64,000 nucleotides of DNA, from positions 186,001 to 250,000 of the forward strand of contig JAJRQK010000039.1 of the NCBI GenBank assembly GCA_024280295.1, in the 5' to 3' direction. Below are positions 49,342 through 60,608 of this stretch, in pieces; within the stretch, counting starts at the first letter, position 1; every line of letters begins with the position of its first letter. The position numbers were made by a program, and so were the translations under genes. This DNA is from Bacteroidota bacterium. Its GTDB lineage: Bacteria; Bacteroidota; Bacteroidia; Flavobacteriales_D; Crocinitomicaceae. The notes beneath the pieces are model-generated. The model was not told the DNA's origin. It searched no databases and saw nothing but the letters and a program-made list of their open reading frames with translations.

Positions 49342-50141
49342 TTAGTTCTTTGTAAATTTGATAGTTGAATTGCCTAGTTTCACGAAATAAAGTCCACTTT
49401 TAAGTGAAGTTAAGTCTAAAATTTTGCTTAATTCAGAAGCTAATATTTCTGTAGAGAAAACAATAGCGCCATTTAAGTCAACAATCACAAACTCTCCGTC
49501 CATACCTTCTTTTAAATCAATTTTCAGGTCAGTTTTTACTGGATTTGGTGAAATAGAAATATTATTCTCTATAGGTTCTGCTATACTCGCAACAGCGCAA
49601 TTAGAAACAAAGCTATATGGGTCTGCCTGTTGTCCTATTAAAGTGACGGTTCTGTCTGGACAAACCATGTAAATATATGGCCAAAAGAATCCTGTTTGAT
49701 AATCTGCAGCAATCGTATTTCCTGAATTTGCAGGGTTTACCACACAGACAGTTGGGTGAGATGTTCCTGTGAGCCAGTCTCCTTGAGATGAAGTATTACA
49801 AGATGTATTTGGTAAACATGTACAATCATTCCCATCTGCTTCAATCGCAAAAATCATAATATCATTGGTCGTTGTTGCCGATACACCAGGGTATCCTGTT
49901 GGACCATGTTGAACATACGCATCTTCCATTGATCCCGTTTCTTTATATGTCCAGCAAGGAGGACACCAAACGGCAAATAAATCTAGAAATACGGTTTTGC
50001 CATCATCTAGGAGAGTGTATAAATTGTGCGTCGGCCGTCCTCATCTGTAAGAGTAAAGTCGGGTGCAATTGATCCGTTGGCTAGCTGCGAATACCCTTTA
50101 AAGGATACAGCTATAACGACCATTAGTAGTAGTGATTTCAT
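49342..50141 (-). pseudogene. Thioredoxin-fold protein with T9SS tail, broken by one frameshift
   Basis: From ATG 50141 the frame gives a signal peptide (LLLMVVIAVSFKGYSQ) and GSIAPDFTLTDEDGR, the standard start of AhpC/TSA-type thioredoxin-like proteins, then hits a TAG. Shifting one base near 50028-50035 (a missing base in GGCCGACGCAC) continues as THNLYTLLDDGKTVFLDLF and AVWCPPCWTY, the CxxC active site. It then runs into the 195-residue frame ending at 49342, with SISPNPVKTDLKIDLKEG and KFTKN of a type A sorting domain. The only in-frame ATG after the shift (49929) lies behind the active site, so a short product would lack it. Either a pseudogene or a sequence error; a programmed shift is unlikely. 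Confidence 0.8.
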
Positions 50142-50215: not shown

Positions 50216-50815
50216 TTACAACCCTTTTAAAATGGCTGAAATGTCTGTTGCGGAAGGGTTATACTCCAACGCAATAGTATAGTGCTTTTTTGCTTCTTTG
50301 ATCTTGCCTAGTTTTACATAGATGCTTCCAAGCAGTGCATTTGAATTATAGTCGAAAGGATAAAGGCTTAAGATTTTTTTTAGATGCGTCTCTGCTGTGG
50401 TATATTTTTTCCGCACGAAATAGATGTATGCAAGTTGATATCTTGAACTTGTGTGATTACCATCAATAGACAGTATTGCAGTGTAAACTTTAATGACTTC
50501 ATCCCAATTACTCATCACCTGAAGTGGGTAAATAAGTCCGAGTCTAGCTTCAATACTAGAAGGCTTCAACTTGATTGCGGTAGTGTAAAAACTTTTAGAT
50601 TTAAGATAATTGGCATTGAGGTAATGTAACCAACCCAATCGTAAATTGGCACTATAAGAGCTGCTTAAATCTATTTTCTCCAAAGTGGAGATTGCTTTTT
50701 GATACTGTCCACTGGCCTCATAGGCATAACTAGTCTTAAAAACTTCTACTGAATTTCCTTGTGCGAAAGAACTAACACTGATCGCTGTGATTGCTATAAT
50801 AAAAATATATTTCAT
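50216..50815 (-). CDS. Exported TPR protein
   Basis: 199 residues. Signal peptide (FIIAITAISVSSFAQ), then about five tetratricopeptide repeats: YAYEASGQYQKAISTLEKI, LRLGWLHYLNANYLKSKSFY, SRYQLAYIYFVRKKYTTAE, LLGSIYVKLGKIKEAKKHY. It should be periplasmic. Last gene of the minus-strand cluster that begins with the PqqD-like protein, only 4 bp after the TPR-barrel gene. In such positions TPR proteins bind partners; here perhaps the outer-membrane protein next door. Confidence 0.85.
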   Translation of the reverse strand: MKYIFIIAITAISVSSFAQGNSVEVFKTSYAYEASGQYQKAISTLEKIDLSSSYSANLRLGWLHYLNANYLKSKSFYTTAIKLKPSSIEARLGLIYPLQVMSNWDEVIKVYTAILSIDGNHTSSRYQLAYIYFVRKKYTTAETHLKKILSLYPFDYNSNALLGSIYVKLGKIKEAKKHYTIALEYNPSATDISAILKGL

Positions 50816-50819
50816 GTTG

Positions 50820-52181
50820 TTAAAGTTTAAATTTTAGCCCTAAATAGATTGAATTCAATCGGTAATCTACTCCATTAAAATTATCGAATACGGATTCGTA
50901 CTGATAAGTCAAATAAAGATGTGTTTTTTTTGAAATTGAATATTTAGTAGTTAAACTATATCGTGTCAACGGTGCAAAATAATTGAAGAGTTGAGAACCT
51001 TCGAATAAACTTATAGCGTAGTTCCCTTTTTTGAAATAGTAAGCAGAAAACTGAAGTTTTTCACTGATATTTATCTTTAAATAAGGAGAAAAGAAAAAGT
51101 TTGAATTTCCATCGTTCAAGATAAATTTTAAATCACTTCCCGCCGTAATGAACCAATGGGAATACGAAAAATCCATGCCAATGGTATATTGATTGATTGT
51201 CGCGCCAACAGGTTGTGATGTGCTGTCATTGACCTCAATTGATTGGCTAATGATTGCTGGACCTGTTCGTTCGGTAATCACTGTCGAATCATAATAAGTT
51301 TCTAAGTAATTTGACTGTCCTTTTGAAGTATAGAATCCAAAATACCCCGAAGTAATAATGTTGTTCCACTTTTTTGTAAATCTCGGTTCTATCAATAAAC
51401 CTAGCTCTTTATACGTTCCATTTATTTGATAAGATGAATCGGCTAAAGTGTCAATAAAACTTGCCCCAGGGAATCCCATTGGAGGTGGGGATTGGTAAGT
51501 GCCTTCCCAGAGAAAATCAAAAACTCCATCAAATAATGACCCGTGGAGTCCTAAGTTTAATTTGGTCGATTTATTGAATAAATAAGATGGATTCGCATAA
51601 TATTGATGCTGTGTATAGTTCCCCCAATTTAATGATTGTGAATTAAAAGTGTATGCTTGAACAAAAGCAATTTTCCCTGTTAGATGATGAGTCAAACCAA
51701 GGTTTAAGTAGGTAGCATTGTTAGCGAACTGCCTGTCACTTGCAAGCTTTAACCCGTATTCCAAATAGATGCTTGATAATTTCTTATTTGGAGTGTAAGC
51801 GATGCGCTGTTGTGTGCTATCATCCAGTTGCGTGTACCATTCTTTCGCTTCTTTCTCCTTTAATAAATGATAATTGCTCCAAAACAAATATTCTACCGCT
51901 ATTTTATTGTAGGAGTTATTTTGATTTGCCTTGGTGAGAAATTCTAAGCTCGATTTATAATCTTCTAACTTAAAATAGGCAATTCCCATTCTGAGATTAA
52001 AATAAAAATAATCCGCGCCATTCTGAGTAGTTTTTTCACCAAATTCAATCAATTTCTCCCAATCCTCATTGACAAAATGTTTATAGGTAACACTATCCAC
52101 TTGCTTATAGTCTTCTTGCGCGAAGAGAATGAATCCTCCCGATAGAAACATAAAGAAAATATAAAGAGTTAATCGACGCAT
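50820..52181 (-). CDS. TPR plus outer-membrane beta-barrel protein (YaiO-like architecture)
   Basis: 453 residues. Signal peptide (FFMFLSGGFILFAQE); TPR-like helices at about 30-115 (FNLRMGIAYFKLEDYKSSLEFL); then about 16 amphipathic strands from about 135 to the end (YLEYGLKLAS, YLNLGLTHHL, YFKKGNYAISLFEG). It ends in LNSIYLGLKFKL, a barrel-type C-terminal strand. The combination of periplasmic TPR and barrel resembles YaiO-type proteins, but I cannot assign a solute. Its ATG overlaps the end of the transporter-peptidase gene by 13 bp, so translation is coupled. Confidence 0.8.
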   Translation of the reverse strand: MRRLTLYIFFMFLSGGFILFAQEDYKQVDSVTYKHFVNEDWEKLIEFGEKTTQNGADYFYFNLRMGIAYFKLEDYKSSLEFLTKANQNNSYNKIAVEYLFWSNYHLLKEKEAKEWYTQLDDSTQQRIAYTPNKKLSSIYLEYGLKLASDRQFANNATYLNLGLTHHLTGKIAFVQAYTFNSQSLNWGNYTQHQYYANPSYLFNKSTKLNLGLHGSLFDGVFDFLWEGTYQSPPPMGFPGASFIDTLADSSYQINGTYKELGLLIEPRFTKKWNNIITSGYFGFYTSKGQSNYLETYYDSTVITERTGPAIISQSIEVNDSTSQPVGATINQYTIGMDFSYSHWFITAGSDLKFILNDGNSNFFFSPYLKINISEKLQFSAYYFKKGNYAISLFEGSQLFNYFAPLTRYSLTTKYSISKKTHLYLTYQYESVFDNFNGVDYRLNSIYLGLKFKL

Positions 52182-54352
52182 ATTGCTATTATTTTTTTTG
52201 AATTCAGTGTCATCTGTAATTTTTCAATACGGTTGTTCTCCACAATGATTTCGGCATCAATCTCCCCACTTTCCTTTCCAAAATAGGAACCTTTTGAATT
52301 GGTCGAAAAAACAATCTTTGTAGGCAGATGCTCATTCTCAATTTCGGCGAATTGCATTTGATAATTTGCCTTGCAATAATGAAAAAACGGTGCCGTAAAA
52401 TCGTGAAGTCCTTTCACAACAGGTGAGAAAAATGCATCAATCAGTAGTTTATCCTTAATGATCGCACCTTTGTAATAACCCAATAAGACACGATGTACAG
52501 CTATGTAAAATAAATGCAAAAAGGACTTTTTACTTCCGTAGAAATCGGTGAAATAAAATAGCGTTCCGTTGTTTACAAAATAAGCAGTGGATTTTGTCTT
52601 GTGACAATAGAGGTAAGTAAGATTAGCAGGAGTCGTAAAGATTTCCCAATTTGTTGTGTAGGTGGCTTTATTCTCTTCTGTGATTTCAAATGAAATTTTT
52701 TGTCCAGGAATAAAGTGGAATGCATCCTTGAGCAATTTTGTTGGATTAATATTACTGACAATGTCCTGCTCTTTTGGAATATCAAAGGAATGGAAGTCAA
52801 ACCCCTCGTCATTCTTGGTTAAGTAATAACTGATCGGGTATTTTAATGTTTTTGACCCAACAAATGGCGTTGCTTGCAATTGAAAGTGAAGATGCGGTTC
52901 TGGAGATCTACCCGAACTTCCACAATAGGCAAGAATATCACCTTTTGATACAAAATCACCCCGTTTTACTTGTGCCGTGTCCTTTTTAAGGTGGGATAAT
53001 TTACTATAAATGTAGTCTCCATGCTTGATAATTAAGGTATTTCCCCAATTGTTCTCAAGATCAACATCTCCAATTTCGTTGTCTTCAATTCCATCGATAA
53101 CTTCAACGATCCATCCGTTAGCGGGAGAGGATACAGGGAGATCATAACAGAAATAGTCTTTTAATTGATATCCTGGATCTTTGAAAGTGTCTCCATTCTC
53201 ATTTACAACATCAAAATCCAACGCTTGTGCCCATTCTCCTTTATGGGTCATATCGCCATCATAACCTTGTGAAATTCTCCAATTCCCAGTTATTGGCAAG
53301 GAGATATGGAAATAAGTATCGGAACTAAAGCGATCCAACGAATTGTAATATTTATAATGGTTTTTCTCTGGAGAAAACTGTTGCAAGGTAACTAGCTGGA
53401 GCCCGGATGATTTATACCTTAACGCCATCGCAGACAAGAACAATAGAACAACAATGTTAAATGGCAACGAATACAACGGCAGTCCAAATTGTGAAAATAA
53501 AGTATGGAGTGCGCTAATAAGTAATGCAATAATTGGAATGGTAAGAAGTAGAATTAGGAATGATTTCTTAGATGGAATCACGAAAAATCCTCCAAGAGCA
53601 ATCGCTGTTAATATGAAATTGAAGCCGATATAACTATAAATCAACTGGGAGAAATCACCTTCTAGGTAATAGTAGAATAAGTATCCAATTGTGAATCCAA
53701 ATATGGAAAGAACAAATCCAATTCTTGAATAGATTAAAAGTCCAATAACAATGAAGACACCCGCTAAATCATTAAATTGAAAAAAGATTGCTCCAAGTGA
53801 TCTTAAGTAAAGCAATATGGCATTTGAAAACGGTAAATCACCTATAAATTCAGTAGTTCCAGAGAATAATCCTGGGAAATAGCGCACTAATGACAGTGTC
53901 TCTTTTTGATTTAATTCGAGTGCGGTAAAATTATTTGCTCCAAGAATAATAATCCATACAACCAATAGAAAGGGAATACTCAAAAATGGAAGTCCTTTAT
54001 TCCCCAACGATGTCGCAAACCAAATCGCAATAAAGAAGGTTAAGATTGATGCAACAATGAGTAAAATCAGAAAGGAAAGATTGAAATCGTAGAAAATACC
54101 AATTGCCATACCCACCATAAGTGAATTGTAGGTATACATCCCGTTTCGGATTTGCGAATGACTAAAATTGAACAACAGTGCGGTAATTTGCCCTATCGCG
54201 ACAGCTATAACCCCACTAATTCCTGCACCGATATCAAAAAAACTAACCAACAACAAAAGCACGGCAAGCACTTTGTTGTTGGAAAAGAATACCTGAGAAT
54301 AACTATTAATAAGTCCCTCCCAGGAGAGTTTTATGTGGTATTTCGCTGTCAA
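52169..54352 (-). CDS. Urea-transporter domain fused to M23 metallopeptidase domain
   Basis: 727 residues from a TTG at 54352; no ATG precedes the first conserved helix. Residues about 20-330 form a urea transporter (UT) with ten or so helices: VFFSNNKVLAVLLLLVSFF, NGMYTYNSLMVGMAIG (the UT G-x-x-x-x-N-x-L-x-x-G motif), and a second half-repeat with LPFSNAILLYLRSLGAIFFQ. From about 350 to 510 lies an M23 LytM-type peptidase with the zinc set: His and Asp in HKGEWAQALDFD, SHL, and HxH in PEPHLHFQL. The last roughly 210 residues are beta-rich and unknown. All expected zinc ligands are present. Overlaps the TPR-barrel gene and lies 44 bp after the PLP decarboxylase gene. Confidence 0.85.
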   Translation of the reverse strand: MTAKYHIKLSWEGLINSYSQVFFSNNKVLAVLLLLVSFFDIGAGISGVIAVAIGQITALLFNFSHSQIRNGMYTYNSLMVGMAIGIFYDFNLSFLILLIVASILTFFIAIWFATSLGNKGLPFLSIPFLLVVWIIILGANNFTALELNQKETLSLVRYFPGLFSGTTEFIGDLPFSNAILLYLRSLGAIFFQFNDLAGVFIVIGLLIYSRIGFVLSIFGFTIGYLFYYYLEGDFSQLIYSYIGFNFILTAIALGGFFVIPSKKSFLILLLTIPIIALLISALHTLFSQFGLPLYSLPFNIVVLLFLSAMALRYKSSGLQLVTLQQFSPEKNHYKYYNSLDRFSSDTYFHISLPITGNWRISQGYDGDMTHKGEWAQALDFDVVNENGDTFKDPGYQLKDYFCYDLPVSSPANGWIVEVIDGIEDNEIGDVDLENNWGNTLIIKHGDYIYSKLSHLKKDTAQVKRGDFVSKGDILAYCGSSGRSPEPHLHFQLQATPFVGSKTLKYPISYYLTKNDEGFDFHSFDIPKEQDIVSNINPTKLLKDAFHFIPGQKISFEITEENKATYTTNWEIFTTPANLTYLYCHKTKSTAYFVNNGTLFYFTDFYGSKKSFLHLFYIAVHRVLLGYYKGAIIKDKLLIDAFFSPVVKGLHDFTAPFFHYCKANYQMQFAEIENEHLPTKIVFSTNSKGSYFGKESGEIDAEIIVENNRIEKLQMTLNSKKIIAICVD

Positions 54353-54396
54353 TCTTGGTAGTGATTTAGTTTTGAAATTAAATGATTTAAAACCAA

Positions 54397-55761
54397 CTAT
54401 AATTCAAAAGTACTTAAATGCGATGGGAGGAGTTCATTTCGCTCGACATCCTCCAATGTCTCACTCGATTTTATTTTATGTGGTACTCCTTTCATGTCAA
54501 TCATAACTACCGCAGGACGAAGTGAAATAAATTGCATGGATTGCGTTATGTTGTACGCTCCAACGTAATGTACAACCACATGATCTCCTGCATTTAACGG
54601 CGGAAGCGTTACATTTTCTCGTACCACATCAATGTTCATACAAAGTGGTCCATATAGCACTGTGTCTTCTGTATATTGACTGAATTCTTGTGCCGGTGAG
54701 ACTTTATGATCGTACCAAAATGCAGTGAATAATATATTGACTCCAAAATCCAAAATGGTTGACCTACGCCCATCAGACAGACGTTTATTTGAGATAACAG
54801 AGCCCAACAAGTAACCAGCACTATCAACTAAAGCACGTCCTGTTTCTAAATAAAGGTAAGGAAGTTCATCAGTATCAAATCCTGCATTTAGCAAAGCACT
54901 TGATATTTGTTCTGCATACTCTTCAATATCTGGAACCGCATCAGTGCCTAATTGATAGGATCCTTTTAACGTGTTTTTTGAAGCAAATCCGCCACCCATG
55001 TCAATATAGGTAATGATTTTATCGTATCGTTTTTTAATGTTCAACGCAAGTACCGAAAGTTTTGTTGCTGCGACACCATAAGCGCTAGGAGTTAACATAT
55101 ACGTTCCGATATGACAGTGTAAACCTATTAAATTAAGTTTACCAGATGCCATGATTTTATTAATAGCATCCCAAGCCTCTCCATTTTCGTAATTAAAGCC
55201 AAATCGATCCCACATCGGGTAGATTCCGGTATCCATATTTACACGAATAGCCACGCGAGGTTTTTTATGCATGTCATCTGCAATTTCAATCAAACGATAG
55301 AGCTCATCCAGATGATCAATGTGAATTGGAGAATCATTTTTCACTGCCGTTCTTAAATCATCATCCGTTTTATCTGGTCCGTTGAACAAGATTTTATCTG
55401 CCGGAACTCCGTTTTTTAATGCTTTGTTGTATTCAAACATCGAAACAACTTCCCCCCAAGATCCTTCTTGATGAAAAACATTACAGACAGCATTAATATA
55501 GTTGGTTTTATAAGACCACGCGAATTGAACTTTGGGATAACGTGTTTCAAAAATCCGCTGCGCACTTTGCATGTTTTCTCTAATTTGTCTTTCCGACATG
55601 ACAAACAATGGAGATCCATATTCGGCAATGAGATCTTTAACCTTAACCCCATCAATATGAGTCTTTGGAGCATATTCAGTTCGTGTCCCAAACTTATTCA
55701 TTAAACCAGAATTTAAGGGCTTGATAATTGGCCTTTCGTATGTTTTTTTTTCTATATCCAT
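54397..55761 (-). CDS. PLP-dependent decarboxylase, fold type III (LysA/BtrK-like)
   Basis: 454 residues from the ATG at 55761; a TTG at 55818 would overlap the ATP-grasp gene. Alanine-racemase-like barrel with the Schiff-base lysine in FAWSYKTNY (Lys 85), HCHIGTYMLTPSAYG, the phosphate loop DMGGGFASKN, and the C-terminal beta domain with ETGRALVDSAGYLLG and YGPLCMNIDVV (active-site Cys). The family includes diaminopimelate decarboxylase and the decarboxylases of ornithine, carboxyspermidine and butirosin (BtrK). Neighbourhood argues against plain lysine synthesis: it sits with an ATP-grasp ligase and a PqqD-like protein. The substrate could be an amino acid attached by that ligase. Confidence 0.88.
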   Translation of the reverse strand: MDIEKKTYERPIIKPLNSGLMNKFGTRTEYAPKTHIDGVKVKDLIAEYGSPLFVMSERQIRENMQSAQRIFETRYPKVQFAWSYKTNYINAVCNVFHQEGSWGEVVSMFEYNKALKNGVPADKILFNGPDKTDDDLRTAVKNDSPIHIDHLDELYRLIEIADDMHKKPRVAIRVNMDTGIYPMWDRFGFNYENGEAWDAINKIMASGKLNLIGLHCHIGTYMLTPSAYGVAATKLSVLALNIKKRYDKIITYIDMGGGFASKNTLKGSYQLGTDAVPDIEEYAEQISSALLNAGFDTDELPYLYLETGRALVDSAGYLLGSVISNKRLSDGRRSTILDFGVNILFTAFWYDHKVSPAQEFSQYTEDTVLYGPLCMNIDVVRENVTLPPLNAGDHVVVHYVGAYNITQSMQFISLRPAVVMIDMKGVPHKIKSSETLEDVERNELLPSHLSTFEL

Positions 55762-55786
55762 CTTAAAACAATTTTTTGTAATCAAT

Positions 55787-56836
55787 TTATAATTCTCCGA
55801 GTGTAGAGATTTGTTCAAATTCTTTCATGTCTACAATCATATCTTGCGAATAACGAATAAACATTTTTCCTACTTCGTAATCTTTAAACGGAATTACTTT
55901 TGTACCCATAGTCAGATTAACGAGTGCTTCGATTTGATTTTGTCCTGCACCAACTGCCAAATAACACCAGGCAGGGAAACGAGGATTAATTTCAATGAGG
56001 TAATATTCATCTTCGTTCGTTTTCATAAACTCAAGTTCAAATGGGCCATTCCATTTTGTTTTTTGGACTAAATCTCGCGTGATATCAAGTAGTTTTTTAT
56101 CGTCTAAAGATACTCCTGCCCATGCTTTTCCTTTATCGGTAATGAATAGTTTCCGCATAGGAACTGCTCCTATTGTTTCGCCTTTAGAGTCGCCAACTCC
56201 GCAAACATTTACTTCAGCACCGTGAACAAATTCTTGAACGAGAACAGGCAGCCCCCATTCTGCGCTAATCTTATTAAAATGCTGCATTGCTTGATCAGGA
56301 GTATGTGCAATCAGAGCATCGTAGAACTTTCCTTTTATAACTAATGGGAACCCTAATTCGGATGCAATTGCCGGAATTTCTGTAGTATTAAAGATCATTT
56401 TTGCGAAGGGGACCTTTATTCCATGCTCTTTTCCATAATCGAATAAGTTTACCTTGTGGCGAGCTTCAAACTGTTCTTGTGTGGGCAATGACATTTTGAT
56501 TCCAAGTTCGTCCCACAGTCGCTTTTCTAACGAAATATAGTTGAACAATTCGGCATCGAAATTGGGGAACAAGAAGTCCACATCTTCCACAGCGTTAATG
56601 TATTTAAATCGCTCGAACAAAACTTCCTGTCCAGCTGATGGGTAAGGGACTTGATATGTTTTATCCACATATTCGTGCATGTAAATTCCAGGTTCTAGTG
56701 TTTCGTAGGAAAGTCCAATTATTCTAACATCAAAACTCTGCGCGTCTTTTAATGATCGAATAACTGCCATTCCCGGCCCTGGACTATCAATGGCATTAAG
56801 TCCCGTTACAGCAATTGTATATTTTGGTTTACTCAT
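55787..56836 (-). CDS. ATP-grasp ligase (carbamoyl-phosphate-synthase-like)
   Basis: 349 residues. Pre-ATP-grasp Rossmann part YTIAVTGLNAIDSPGPGMAV; substrate pocket region LFPNFDAELFNYI; ATP-grasp lid FPLVIKGKFYDALIA and VLVQEFVHGAEVNV; Mg-binding end FELEFMKTNEDEYYLIEINPRFPAWCY (Glu and Asn). Enzymes of this kind join a carboxylate to an amine or thiol through an acyl phosphate. It starts 2 bp after the PqqD-like gene stop and its own stop is 25 bp before the decarboxylase ATG. The pairing of ATP-grasp ligase and type III decarboxylase recalls BtrJ/BtrK in butirosin synthesis, where an amino acid is activated on a carrier and then decarboxylated. Confidence 0.85.
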   Translation of the reverse strand: MSKPKYTIAVTGLNAIDSPGPGMAVIRSLKDAQSFDVRIIGLSYETLEPGIYMHEYVDKTYQVPYPSAGQEVLFERFKYINAVEDVDFLFPNFDAELFNYISLEKRLWDELGIKMSLPTQEQFEARHKVNLFDYGKEHGIKVPFAKMIFNTTEIPAIASELGFPLVIKGKFYDALIAHTPDQAMQHFNKISAEWGLPVLVQEFVHGAEVNVCGVGDSKGETIGAVPMRKLFITDKGKAWAGVSLDDKKLLDITRDLVQKTKWNGPFELEFMKTNEDEYYLIEINPRFPAWCYLAVGAGQNQIEALVNLTMGTKVIPFKDYEVGKMFIRYSQDMIVDMKEFEQISTLGEL

Positions 56837-56838
56837 AG

Positions 56839-57078
56839 CTAGTCGATTAATTTATAGTTTTCTAGCATCCGTATGAAATCATTCAAATCTTTTTCAACAG
56901 TGTTTTTATCAATTCGATATTCTTGAAGAATATCATCCAAGATCTCTTTATCTGATTTCCGTTCTTGGAAGGAGTTAATAATTGATTGCCCGATTGGATT
57001 TACGGAAAATGAATCTCCAGTCAATGGGTTAAAAATAAATCCTGAATCACTGACTGCTATATTTTTTCGAATTTTCAT
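56839..57078 (-). CDS. PqqD-like protein (possible RiPP recognition element)
   Basis: 79 residues with the PqqD fold pattern: a beta hairpin IAVSDSGFIFNPLTGDSFSVN, then helices IGQSIINSFQERKSDKEILD and EKDLNDFIRMLENYKLID. PqqD-like proteins bind leader peptides and deliver them to modifying enzymes (RiPP recognition element). First gene of the tight cluster with the ATP-grasp ligase 2 bp downstream. I looked for a precursor peptide in 57079-57201 and in the other intergenic gaps of the cluster and saw none of convincing length, so the client may be encoded elsewhere or the protein may have another role. Confidence 0.8.
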   Translation of the reverse strand: MKIRKNIAVSDSGFIFNPLTGDSFSVNPIGQSIINSFQERKSDKEILDDILQEYRIDKNTVEKDLNDFIRMLENYKLID

Positions 57079-57201
57079 GATGAGTATTTTAAATGAATCT
57101 CATGTTAACAAATGTTGTACACCAAAATTAACGAGAACGTAGATTTAATAGTTTACACAATTTTAAGTTTAATGTGTAAGATTTAGGAATGGTAGATGAC
57201 G

Positions 57202-57798
57202 TCACCTAGTAAGTAGGTCATCAAGGGCAACCCTAACTGGTTGTTCCATCTCTTTGTATTCCGAAAACGTGCATCCTGAAATTTGTTTGAACTGTCGGCT
57301 GAGGTATTGGACACTACTGTATCCTAGTTGATAAGAAATCTCGCTCAAGGTTAGTGAATCTTCAAGAACAAGTTCCTTCGCTTTTTCAATCTTTAGGAGA
57401 ATAATGTACTTTTCAAGGGTTGTTCCTGTAATTTTCGAAAACACTTTACTGATTTTATCGTATGGTTCTTGAATACGGTCACTAATATAATCTGAGTTCC
57501 GAATAATCGAATTGTTATTATTCGAGAACATGATTAATTCGATTGCGGCAATTTTTATTTTTTCTGTTAGGATGGTTTCTTTGTCGATTATAACCTCGAA
57601 ACCAATATTTTTAAAATGGGTGCTAATTTGTTCGATTGAAATGATATCCAAATCAGCATAAAGCGAAACCTCCCCTAGAAACACACGATGAACAGTAATA
57701 TCTTCAACTGCATTAAAGTACACTTCCACTAGTTTTAGACAACTTTTGGAGACCATGTTTTTAAGAATGAACAGATGTTCTTTTACCATTTTCGGCAA
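57202..57798 (-). CDS. AraC-family regulator with degenerate HMA-like N-terminal domain
   Basis: 198 residues. N-terminal about 1-75: an HMA-like fold, FILKNMVSKSCLKLVEVYF, strands VFLGEVSL and IGFEVIIDKE. In relatives this region reads with a CxxC metal site; here only the second Cys is left (Ser 16 in place of the first, in MVSKSC). C-terminal about 110-190: AraC double helix-turn-helix, EKYIILLKIEKAKELVLED, LTLSEISYQLGYSSVQYLS and RQFKQISGCTFSEYKE. It lies upstream of, and in line with, the PqqD-like gene (123-bp gap), so it may control the cluster, although it could also be independent. A TGACGTCA palindrome lies at 57193-57200 in that gap. Confidence 0.85.
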   Translation of the reverse strand: MPKMVKEHLFILKNMVSKSCLKLVEVYFNAVEDITVHRVFLGEVSLYADLDIISIEQISTHFKNIGFEVIIDKETILTEKIKIAAIELIMFSNNNNSIIRNSDYISDRIQEPYDKISKVFSKITGTTLEKYIILLKIEKAKELVLEDSLTLSEISYQLGYSSVQYLSRQFKQISGCTFSEYKEMEQPVRVALDDLLTR

Positions 57799-58796: not shown

Positions 58797-60608
58797 TTAT
58801 CGAACTAAAGTAATAAATCCAGAGGTTTCTTCAGTCCCTCCTAGTTTCGATTTCACTTCTATCTTATAGAAATAAGTCCCATCAGCAACTAGCAATCCAG
58901 ACTTTGTTCTTCCATCCCACCCTTGAAGTAAGTCATTCGACTCATATACAACCTCACCCCAGCGATTGAAGATGAATACTGTTCCGTCCATATTACACGA
59001 TTCAGAGAAATACAATAAGTCATTGACTTGATCACCATTCGGAGTAAAAACGTTCACCGATAGTAATTCACAATGCTCTTCTTTTGGGGCTTCTGGACCT
59101 GGAGGTATAGGTGGAGTTGGAGGTGTTGATCCAAAGCAAGCATCAGTTATCTTACCATTAAATATTTGCTTTCCTTGATTTGGACTAACAGTTATTCCAT
59201 CGAAGGTCATACTTTGAGTGAAGTATCCTGTAAAAAAAACATCACACCCATTCACATCCACACTCGCTGCTCGATCGAAATCAGTTCCGCCGCCGCCAAG
59301 TACCCAATGCCAATTTCCTAAAGTGTCAAGTCCCGCAACAAATGCTTGAACGCTATCTCCATTTGAGCTAATTGGAAAGAGTCCAAAACTTGCATCACTA
59401 CTAAATTGTCCTGAAACGAAGATATTTCCTTGATCATTTGCACAAAGACCAGTCACACGATCTTTCCCTTTCTTTGATCCAGCTTTTGTGGCCCACATCC
59501 ATTGACCGTCTTTGGTCATCCTAGCAACAAATCCATCTTTGCCTCCAGCGGATCCGTAATTATTCAAATACTGTGTTCCGAAGTAGGCAGTGTCTCTAAA
59601 TTCACCGCCAATGTACATTGTGTTATCGTTTCCGAAAGTAATGGCGTCGCCTCGATCATCAAGTAAACCACCTGCTTGAGTGACTTGTAGGAAGTTACCA
59701 CTGGGGTCATATTTAATCACATAAATATCTTCTCCGCCAGCACTTATCAAGCTTGTTGTTCCAAATGTTTTGGTGCCAACAAAACCACCTGTCACATAAA
59801 CATTATCTTCGTCATCTACCGCTACGGCATTATCTCGATGTTGGTAAATCCCTTCAAATGTTCGCACCCATATCCAAGTGCCATCATTTGCCAGTTTAGC
59901 AAGAAACGCAACAGAATCTATTGGCTGAATTGGAACTGCAATTGCATCAAAAAAGGCATTTTGGACATTAAATGAATCTATATTTGACAAGAAACCTGTA
60001 ACGTAAATGTTTCCTTGACTATCTGATGCTAAATCTTGCCCATGATCATCTTGATAGAGGGTTTGATAAGCACCATTCTCATTTATTGTAGAAGCAATGC
60101 TTCCGTCAGAATTTCCTGCATTTTTCATCCAAAGTTCATTTCCATTATTATCTAATTTCACAACAAATATTTGATCTGTATAAGAAGACAAATTGTAAAC
60201 AGAGAGCGAACCAAAATCTAATCCTCCCCAACAAGTCCCTGTAATGTACACATTCCCAGCTGGATCTAGGCAAAGTCCTAATCCACGGTCATCGTAATAG
60301 TTAATGCCATTTTTCACCCAAACGTAATTTCCACTGGGGTCAATTTTAGCAACATAAACTTCCTTACTACTGGCAAATGAATAACCAGTATAAAACGGAC
60401 CAAAATTCGCTTCTGAATTGTAATACCCTGTAATGTATGTAAAACCATCATCATCCACTTGGATAGTTGTACCTTTATCTGAACCATTTAGGCCAGCAGT
60501 GTTAATCCACTCTGCTGTTTGAGACAGTATCGTACTAGAAAAACCAAGAATTAGAATTATTAGTGTATATCGAATTGATAGCATATTGGAGATAATAGGT
60601 GTTTTCAT
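58797..60608 (-). CDS. Beta-propeller-repeat surface protein with type B (CHU_C) T9SS sorting domain
   Basis: 603 residues. Signal peptide (LIILILGFSSTILSQ), then about 9-10 SBBP-like repeats with the pattern G-x-x-Y-I/V-T-G-x-F-x-x-x-x-x-F-G and D-x-x-G-N-x-x-W (DPSGNYVWVKNG, GNVYITGTCWGGLDFGS, NVYVTGGFVGTKTFG). A proline-rich linker (PPTPPIPPGPEAPKEE) leads to a type B sorting domain: VNVFTPNGDQVNDLLYF, IFNRWGEVVYES, and GTYFYKIEVKSKLG to FITLVR. Such proteins are exported by T9SS with the gliding-type C-terminus and kept at the surface. Role unknown. A second ATG at 60584 is possible. Confidence 0.88.
   Translation of the reverse strand: MKTPIISNMLSIRYTLIILILGFSSTILSQTAEWINTAGLNGSDKGTTIQVDDDGFTYITGYYNSEANFGPFYTGYSFASSKEVYVAKIDPSGNYVWVKNGINYYDDRGLGLCLDPAGNVYITGTCWGGLDFGSLSVYNLSSYTDQIFVVKLDNNGNELWMKNAGNSDGSIASTINENGAYQTLYQDDHGQDLASDSQGNIYVTGFLSNIDSFNVQNAFFDAIAVPIQPIDSVAFLAKLANDGTWIWVRTFEGIYQHRDNAVAVDDEDNVYVTGGFVGTKTFGTTSLISAGGEDIYVIKYDPSGNFLQVTQAGGLLDDRGDAITFGNDNTMYIGGEFRDTAYFGTQYLNNYGSAGGKDGFVARMTKDGQWMWATKAGSKKGKDRVTGLCANDQGNIFVSGQFSSDASFGLFPISSNGDSVQAFVAGLDTLGNWHWVLGGGGTDFDRAASVDVNGCDVFFTGYFTQSMTFDGITVSPNQGKQIFNGKITDACFGSTPPTPPIPPGPEAPKEEHCELLSVNVFTPNGDQVNDLLYFSESCNMDGTVFIFNRWGEVVYESNDLLQGWDGRTKSGLLVADGTYFYKIEVKSKLGGTEETSGFITLVR

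Follow-up and report, generated by a model that had tools for sequence, protein, structure and literature searches.

A leader-like tag on a PLP decarboxylase suggests a precursor-free role for a stand-alone RRE in a six-gene operon of Bacteroidota

The window analysed here, a stretch of 64,000 nucleotides from a Bacteroidota bacterium of the family Crocinitomicaceae (GenBank assembly GCA_024280295.1, contig JAJRQK010000039.1, positions 186,001 to 250,000), carries on its minus strand six closely packed genes for a small PqqD-like protein, an ATP-grasp ligase, a pyridoxal phosphate (PLP)-dependent decarboxylase, a urea transporter (UT)-fold channel fused to an M23 metallopeptidase (UT-M23), a putative outer-membrane beta-barrel protein with tetratricopeptide repeats (TPR) and a periplasmic TPR protein. 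The PqqD-like protein is predicted to be a stand-alone recognition element (RRE) of the type known from ribosomally synthesized and post-translationally modified peptides (RiPPs), and its only visible ligand is a leader-like motif at the N-terminus of the decarboxylase. We propose a precursor-free RRE system, in which a leader-binding module has been reused as an adaptor for an enzyme tag, would hold ligase and decarboxylase together and would feed a UT-fold channel with a cytoplasmic M23 domain; we consider the chances for and against this proposal evenly balanced. Each part stems from a known family. Apparently undescribed, as judged from a limited search of open-access literature, are the combination of the six genes, an RRE for which an enzyme is the sole visible ligand and a UT-M23 fusion used in this way. 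An earlier sequence-only reading of the window had known of no described system of this composition, and none was found in the open-access literature searched; most subscription journals lay outside that search, so an earlier mention is possible.

The same reading had described six minus-strand genes that run almost without gaps, with an AraC regulator upstream in line. All of these open reading frames were found, and the intergenic distances of 2, 25, 44, -13 and 4 bp are exact when the decarboxylase is taken to start at ATG 55761. The mechanically derived reading frame of this gene begins at TTG 55818; the true start is placed at ATG 55761 because all homologues open with MxKKxYERP there. 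Relatives were gathered with UT-M23 as the sole query (more than 480 contigs, nearly all from Bacteroidota), so that the neighbouring genes are unselected. The genes turned out not to be scattered in these relatives. Adjacency on the same strand was found for the genes of the PqqD-like protein and the ligase in 65 of 67 loci, for ligase and decarboxylase in 75/76, for decarboxylase and UT-M23 in 71/78, for UT-M23 and the barrel protein in 81/84 and for barrel and TPR protein in 75/79, so that more than 90% of the loci keep the order; overlaps are typical, with -11 bp for the first pair and -13 bp, the median, for UT-M23 and barrel. When the 1581 open reading frames of 97 loci were clustered all against all, only the six operon families (each in 72-96 loci) and the AraC family (in 37) exceeded 20% of the loci, while every other family occurred in 14 loci or fewer; the count for the RRE family is low because overlapping reading frames hid this gene, which was recovered later in most cases. 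No lys or dap genes recur as neighbours. Of 395 genomes drawn from the phylum, 34 are matched by the profile of UT-M23 and 34 by that of the ATP-grasp protein, and these are the same 34, which puts the operon in about 9% of the sampled Bacteroidota species. Within the order its distribution is patchy (16 of 249 genomes with a relaxed cut-off, including one in which just the UT part is matched). Plasmid records contain distant ATP-grasp, UT or M23 relatives only and never the full set. On these grounds it is virtually certain that the six genes constitute one co-inherited operon, as the sequence-only reading had supposed. In two genomes (G114 and G138) the genes for RRE, ligase and decarboxylase reside on one contig and those for UT-M23, barrel and TPR protein on another, and this split suggests that the operon comprises one module for synthesis and one for the envelope.

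The PqqD-like protein (79 aa, positions 56839-57078, minus strand; PqqD 1.6e-11) belongs to a family whose profile matches the lasso-peptide RREs TbiB1 (E 9.6e-13) and TfuB1 (4.6e-7). In the printed alignment, N27 and D64 fall on G42 and Q79 of PbaB1 (9x90), positions that a 2026 study equated with N33 and D70 of LppB, both of which bind a Tyr-x-x-Pro leader (PMC13381572). In LppB, the exchange N33A almost abolished and D70A reduced leader binding, while the double change G42N/Q79D enabled PbaB1 to bind a YxxP leader strongly (PMC13381572). Among the operon RREs, N27 is present in 68 of 68 and F68 in 67 of 68 sequences, and L72 and L77 are conserved in at least 90%. Since N27 and D64 match the YxxP-binding positions, N27 being invariant and F68 nearly so, we regard it as highly probable that the protein is an RRE with an intact groove of the YxxP type. 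It resembles the lasso RREs TbiB1 and TfuB1/FusB1 as well as LppB from the biosynthesis of linear polyphosphorylated peptides in its fold, in the YxxP-binding Asn and Asp, in the pockets formed by F68, L72 and L77 and in the ligand motif YxxPx[LIV]. In contrast to these systems, neither a precursor peptide nor a B2 protease or cyclase was found here, and the motif is carried N-terminally by a decarboxylase of 450 aa.

This decarboxylase (54397-55761, minus strand) starts with the consensus M-x(1-4)-K-x-[Y/F]-E-R-P-x-[I/L], represented in the window by YERPII (55723-55740), which matches the RRE ligand motif YxxPx[LVIFA] and is the predicted docking tag. In the form [Y/F]xxPx[I/L/V], the ligand motif stands at the beginning of all 97 complete decarboxylases, i.e., of 77/77 in a first set and of 20/20 in a divergent second set drawn later from the phylum search. 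In the latter the residues between Tyr and Pro vary (ER, EK, TK), and Y/F, P and I/V/L stay. As a background, the motif occurs within the first 15 residues of four and within the first 30 residues of eight of the 687 other open reading frames from the same loci. LysA and other paralogues of the alanine-racemase (AR) fold in the same genomes do not carry the tag, LysA starting beyond the tag region. Furthermore, tag and groove covary: a Tyr in the tag is accompanied by Asp64 of the RRE in 90 of 90 cases, whereas a Phe goes along with Tyr or His at position 64 in four of four. From these comparisons it appears reasonably likely that the RRE docks the decarboxylase via the leader-like tag. The sequence-only reading had overlooked both the motif on the decarboxylase and the altered urea site described below. 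A conserved C-terminal tail of the ligase (ending ISTxGEL) was considered as a further docking tail and rejected, as it looked invariant at first and was found to be looser in divergent loci.

The tag is followed by a strongly conserved stretch, LNTGxMNKFGTRTEY, and the genes for ligase and RRE overlap in 48 of 67 loci. Both features would suit a scenario in which RRE and ATP-grasp protein modify the decarboxylase itself, its N-terminal tail serving as a RiPP-like substrate that is, e.g., amidated or cross-linked and later clipped by the M23 peptidase. We hold this to be improbable: in the divergent lineage the residues that follow the tag are variable, and with its complete PLP active site the decarboxylase is itself a genuine enzyme.

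When genes for enzymes and a transporter accompany a stand-alone RRE, the usual interpretation is a RiPP cluster (PMC7470986), and a peptidase that is fused to a channel and predicted to face the cytoplasm would be suited for leader removal. In a classical RiPP pathway, a true precursor peptide encoded elsewhere would be bound by the RRE and tailored by ATP-grasp protein and decarboxylase, M23 would cut the leader and the channel would export the product, the tag on the decarboxylase being a side effect or a second client. The sequence-only reading had advised looking for a short conserved open reading frame near the PqqD gene in relatives; none was found in the 600 bp flanking each side of 68 operons, and a group of short reading frames that did cluster around the operon consisted only of antisense frames of the AraC gene. 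In 12 genomes, no copy of the tag was detected apart from that on the decarboxylase, all other matches having E-values of 0.06 or worse, and the all-against-all clustering yielded no additional conserved family. The operon RRE is the only protein of the PqqD family in 15 of 17 genomes with the cluster, and three cluster-free congeners have none. A RiPP precursor gene was therefore not found in the 600 bp around the 68 operons nor, as a copy of the tag, in the 12 genomes, though an unrelated, distant precursor is possible, and we judge the classical pathway unlikely.

With regard to its substrate, the decarboxylase differs from canonical diaminopimelate (DAP) decarboxylase. The best NCBIfam model is FslC (239 bits, cut-off 500), followed by LysA (216.5, cut-off 297.9), both scores being below the cut-off, and among solved structures N-citrylornithine decarboxylase (7kh2, E 1.7e-57) ranks first. 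In DAP decarboxylase, R343 binds the distal carboxylate and an acidic residue beside the catalytic Cys binds the distal amine, and T327, T330, Y331, M355, H357 and R387 have been named as determinants in FigC (PMC7857480). In the printed alignment, the FigC residues correspond to T365, W368, Y369, M394, I396 and Q426. Both LysA determinants are missing, with T365 in place of the Arg and M394 in place of the acidic residue after the catalytic Cys, so that the enzyme has neither of the binders used by LysA and the basic amino acid decarboxylases. On the other hand, Thr and Tyr of the specificity helix and the Met beside the catalytic Cys are present (T365, Y369, C393, M394), M394 in 78 of 78 decarboxylases, T365 in 76 (Asn in the other two) and Y369 in 77. 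Judged by these residues rather than by placement in a tree, the active-site signature is that of the clade of FigC, SbnH, AcsE, MccE and BtrK, and we are very confident that the protein is not LysA. The enzyme shares the FigC-type site for a conjugate, minus the citrate contacts, and its substrate may well be an acylated or otherwise bound amino acid.

Were the decarboxylase the plain LysA of these bacteria and its neighbourhood incidental, one could point to its being the sole PF02784 protein in the genome of the window and to a standard LysA in seven of nine cluster-free congeners. This reading has next to no probability in our view, because the score lies below the LysA cut-off and the determinants are lost, two genomes (G175 and G218) possess the cluster plus LysA, 177 of the 249 genomes examined in the order have no LysA above the cut-off in any case, and UT-M23 and ATP-grasp protein are co-inherited. 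The idea that the operon enzyme replaces LysA was dropped likewise, for the loss of LysA from cluster genomes is striking within the genus, but most of the order lacks LysA. AR-fold decarboxylase-like proteins of 553-586 aa from genomes of another family, encoded in loci L142-L146, were set aside as distant relatives in a different context and make up a separate, uncharacterised group; in three of these five loci the gene stands beside a run of rhodanese genes.

The gene between RRE and decarboxylase encodes the ATP-grasp carboxylate-amine ligase (349 aa, 55787-56836, minus strand; ATPgrasp_Ter 2.5e-9, 2pn1 1.1e-10), whose structure model matches 2pn1, RizA and BacD. The sequence-only reading had likened ligase and decarboxylase to BtrJ/BtrK of butirosin synthesis, and the active-site signature bears this out. 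Both systems pair an ATP-grasp ligase with an AR-fold decarboxylase that acts, here putatively, on a bound amino acid; in contrast to BtrI/BtrJ/BtrK, no acyl carrier protein family recurs in the loci, an RRE is present instead, and an inner-membrane channel and envelope genes are added. In common with FigC/FslC, the enzyme of rhizoferrin biosynthesis that decarboxylates an N-acylated ornithine (N-citrylornithine), and with SbnH and AcsE, the decarboxylase has the AR fold, with T365, Y369 and M394 equivalent to FigC T327, Y331 and M355, and in the proposed scheme it would likewise act after a ligase. It differs by the replacement of H357 and R387, by an ATP-grasp protein instead of an NRPS-independent siderophore (NIS) synthetase as partner and by the additional tagged N-terminus. 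That the nearest characterised decarboxylase is a rhizoferrin enzyme, that a multicopper oxidase gene lies within two operons and that some loci have genes for an extracytoplasmic function (ECF) sigma factor and a Metal_resist protein upstream could indicate a metallophore route, in which the ligase would couple a diamino acid with a carboxylate before a FigC-style decarboxylation, and the product would bind metal outside the cell. We consider such a route quite unlikely: the citrate contacts are lost, neither an NIS synthetase nor a TonB receptor is among the recurring genes, regulators differ by lineage and the AraC protein begins with a CxxC-like element that has degenerated in most relatives.

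UT-M23 (727 aa, 52169-54352, minus strand) comprises a UT-fold membrane domain (residues 1-340, 53333-54352; PF03253, 2e-59), an M23 metallopeptidase domain (residues 346-524, 52781-53317; 4.5e-14) and a beta-rich domain. Its structure model (pLDDT 91.9) gave Z 35 for the UT domain against dvUT and Z of about 14 for the M23 domain against M23 peptidases. The UT fold, both LPxx[ST]xPF filter motifs and the equivalents of Q24 and F27 are shared with dvUT/SLC14. Gln24 and Glu187 of dvUT we take to be the urea-binding pair and Thr130 and Thr294 the filter residues. Here, Q24 is kept (Q20), whereas E187 is replaced by A188 (in 81 of 89 sequences) and T130 and T294 by S125 and S295; further differences are the fused M23 and additional domains. 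The predicted "urea transporter" therefore appears to have lost one of two urea-binding residues, i.e., its substrate site is altered. In the M23 domain, the zinc ligands and catalytic His residues (H370, D379, H454, H487 and H489) are all retained: each is present in at least 87 of 89 sequences, and the remaining ones have gaps there. Clusters of Lys and Arg lie at the N-terminus, at residues 61-70, 111-120, 208-212 and 260-264 and directly after the last helix, and Lys and Arg occur in every predicted inner loop. UTs usually have both ends inside. As the charge bias fits this topology, the M23 domain is likely to be cytoplasmic. With this predicted topology, UT-M23 would be comparable to the C39 peptidase-containing ABC exporters, which offer an analogy in that a membrane transporter is joined to a peptidase in the cytoplasm; it differs from them in that the UT-fold channel has no ATPase and an M23 zinc peptidase replaces the C39 cysteine peptidase.

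The fold of the M23 domain matches wall endopeptidases and the decarboxylase shares its ancestry with DAP decarboxylase, in line with a muropeptide-processing pathway in which M23 cuts DAP-containing wall fragments, decarboxylation occurs at DAP and the ligase rebuilds the product. This pathway seems very improbable to us, since M23 is predicted to be cytoplasmic and both the Arg for the DAP carboxylate and the amine-binding acid are gone. M23 relatives with 31-36% identity also occur in haloarchaea, organisms without murein, so this M23 subfamily need not act on the wall. The earlier alternative that a wall fragment is processed finds no support if it calls for an outward-facing peptidase, the charge bias placing the M23 domain on the cytoplasmic side.

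The last two genes encode the TPR and outer-membrane beta-barrel protein (453 aa, 50820-52181, minus strand; 19 of 39 homologues match TPR and 2 of 39 OMP_b-brl) and the periplasmic TPR protein with signal peptide (199 aa, 50216-50815, minus strand; TPR_2 9e-20). Domain calls were based on Pfam and NCBIfam, and the barrel assignment is weak. TPR and barrel are fused in most loci and encoded by separate genes in the divergent lineage (L181, L185, L188, L189), and this points to proteins that work together.

In the mechanism we favour, the RRE would serve as an adaptor through which the decarboxylase docks to the ATP-grasp ligase, the tag residing on an enzyme instead of a precursor peptide. The ligase would join a carboxylate to an amine and thereby incorporate an amino acid into a conjugate, from which the decarboxylase would remove the alpha-carboxylate to give a small amine. 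A sequential action of the two enzymes on one conjugate is slightly favoured by us. The product would then meet the inner-membrane UT-fold channel, where the cytoplasm-facing M23 domain could trim or release it, and the co-translated TPR-barrel and TPR proteins may carry it across periplasm and outer membrane. The handover to the channel and across the envelope is put forward tentatively, its chances being a little short of even, and a machine for synthesis plus envelope passage as the whole explanation for the six genes may equally be right or wrong.

Several points weigh against this proposal. In a tree of the 97 decarboxylases, calculated with the tag excluded, the proteins with Phe form two well supported pairs whose union has a support of 65/24. 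As the four Phe cases represent one or two lineages, the covariation with RRE position 64 reflects one or two evolutionary events and is supportive rather than an independent proof. A conserved enzyme would retain its N-terminal motif anyway, so that conservation as such does not prove binding. The FigC citrate contacts H357 and R387 are replaced by I396 and Q426. Finally, for the last 200 residues of UT-M23, past residue 524, no fold was found among the matches listed, which were filled by the other domains.

The gene for the AraC-family regulator (57202-57798, minus strand) lies upstream in line, and the same family is present in 37 of 97 loci. By impression from the sequence and without a Pfam match, the N-terminal half of this protein and its relatives resembles a metal-binding HMA domain (KNMVxxxC), the first Cys being degraded to Ser in most relatives. 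Regulators vary by lineage and comprise, besides AraC, LytTR with a histidine kinase, a hybrid kinase and the ECF sigma factor with the Metal_resist protein; as they differ between lineages, the system is probably inducible.

A repeat protein of 603 aa that ends in a gliding/type IX (CHU_C-like) tail is encoded at 58797-60608 (minus strand), two genes upstream of that for AraC. At 49342-50141 (minus strand) lies a broken gene for a thioredoxin-like protein with a WCPPCW motif and a type IX secretion tail: the frame that opens with the signal peptide at 50141 meets a stop codon, and the remaining 195 aa, up to 49342, are encoded in a different frame. Genes with type IX tails occur near the operon in several lineages, and a link to this secretion system was rejected as a general feature, their density being 8.6% near the operon versus 8.1% and 6.2% further out. 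In one divergent lineage (L180-L192), a secreted protein of about 280 aa with a FlgD_ig/type IX tail is encoded directly upstream of the RRE gene. The related operons L019 and L020 have the gene for a multicopper oxidase with type IX secretion tail between those for RRE and ligase, and in some Bacteroidales (L082, L088, L100) an IF-2B gene (eIF2B-like isomerase fold) is located between decarboxylase and UT-M23.

Reading precursor peptides is the known function of RREs, and in genome mining a PqqD-like gene that stands alone counts as a sign of a RiPP. If the proposal is true, this sign would also mark systems of a second class, and nature would possess a portable peptide tag by which enzymes are assembled. 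With the operon in about 9% of the sampled species, a small molecule of a major phylum, secreted or imported, becomes directly testable. Several annotations would likely need correction: the "diaminopimelate decarboxylase" is not one, the "urea transporter" has an altered site and the M23 "cell-wall" peptidase probably faces the cytoplasm.

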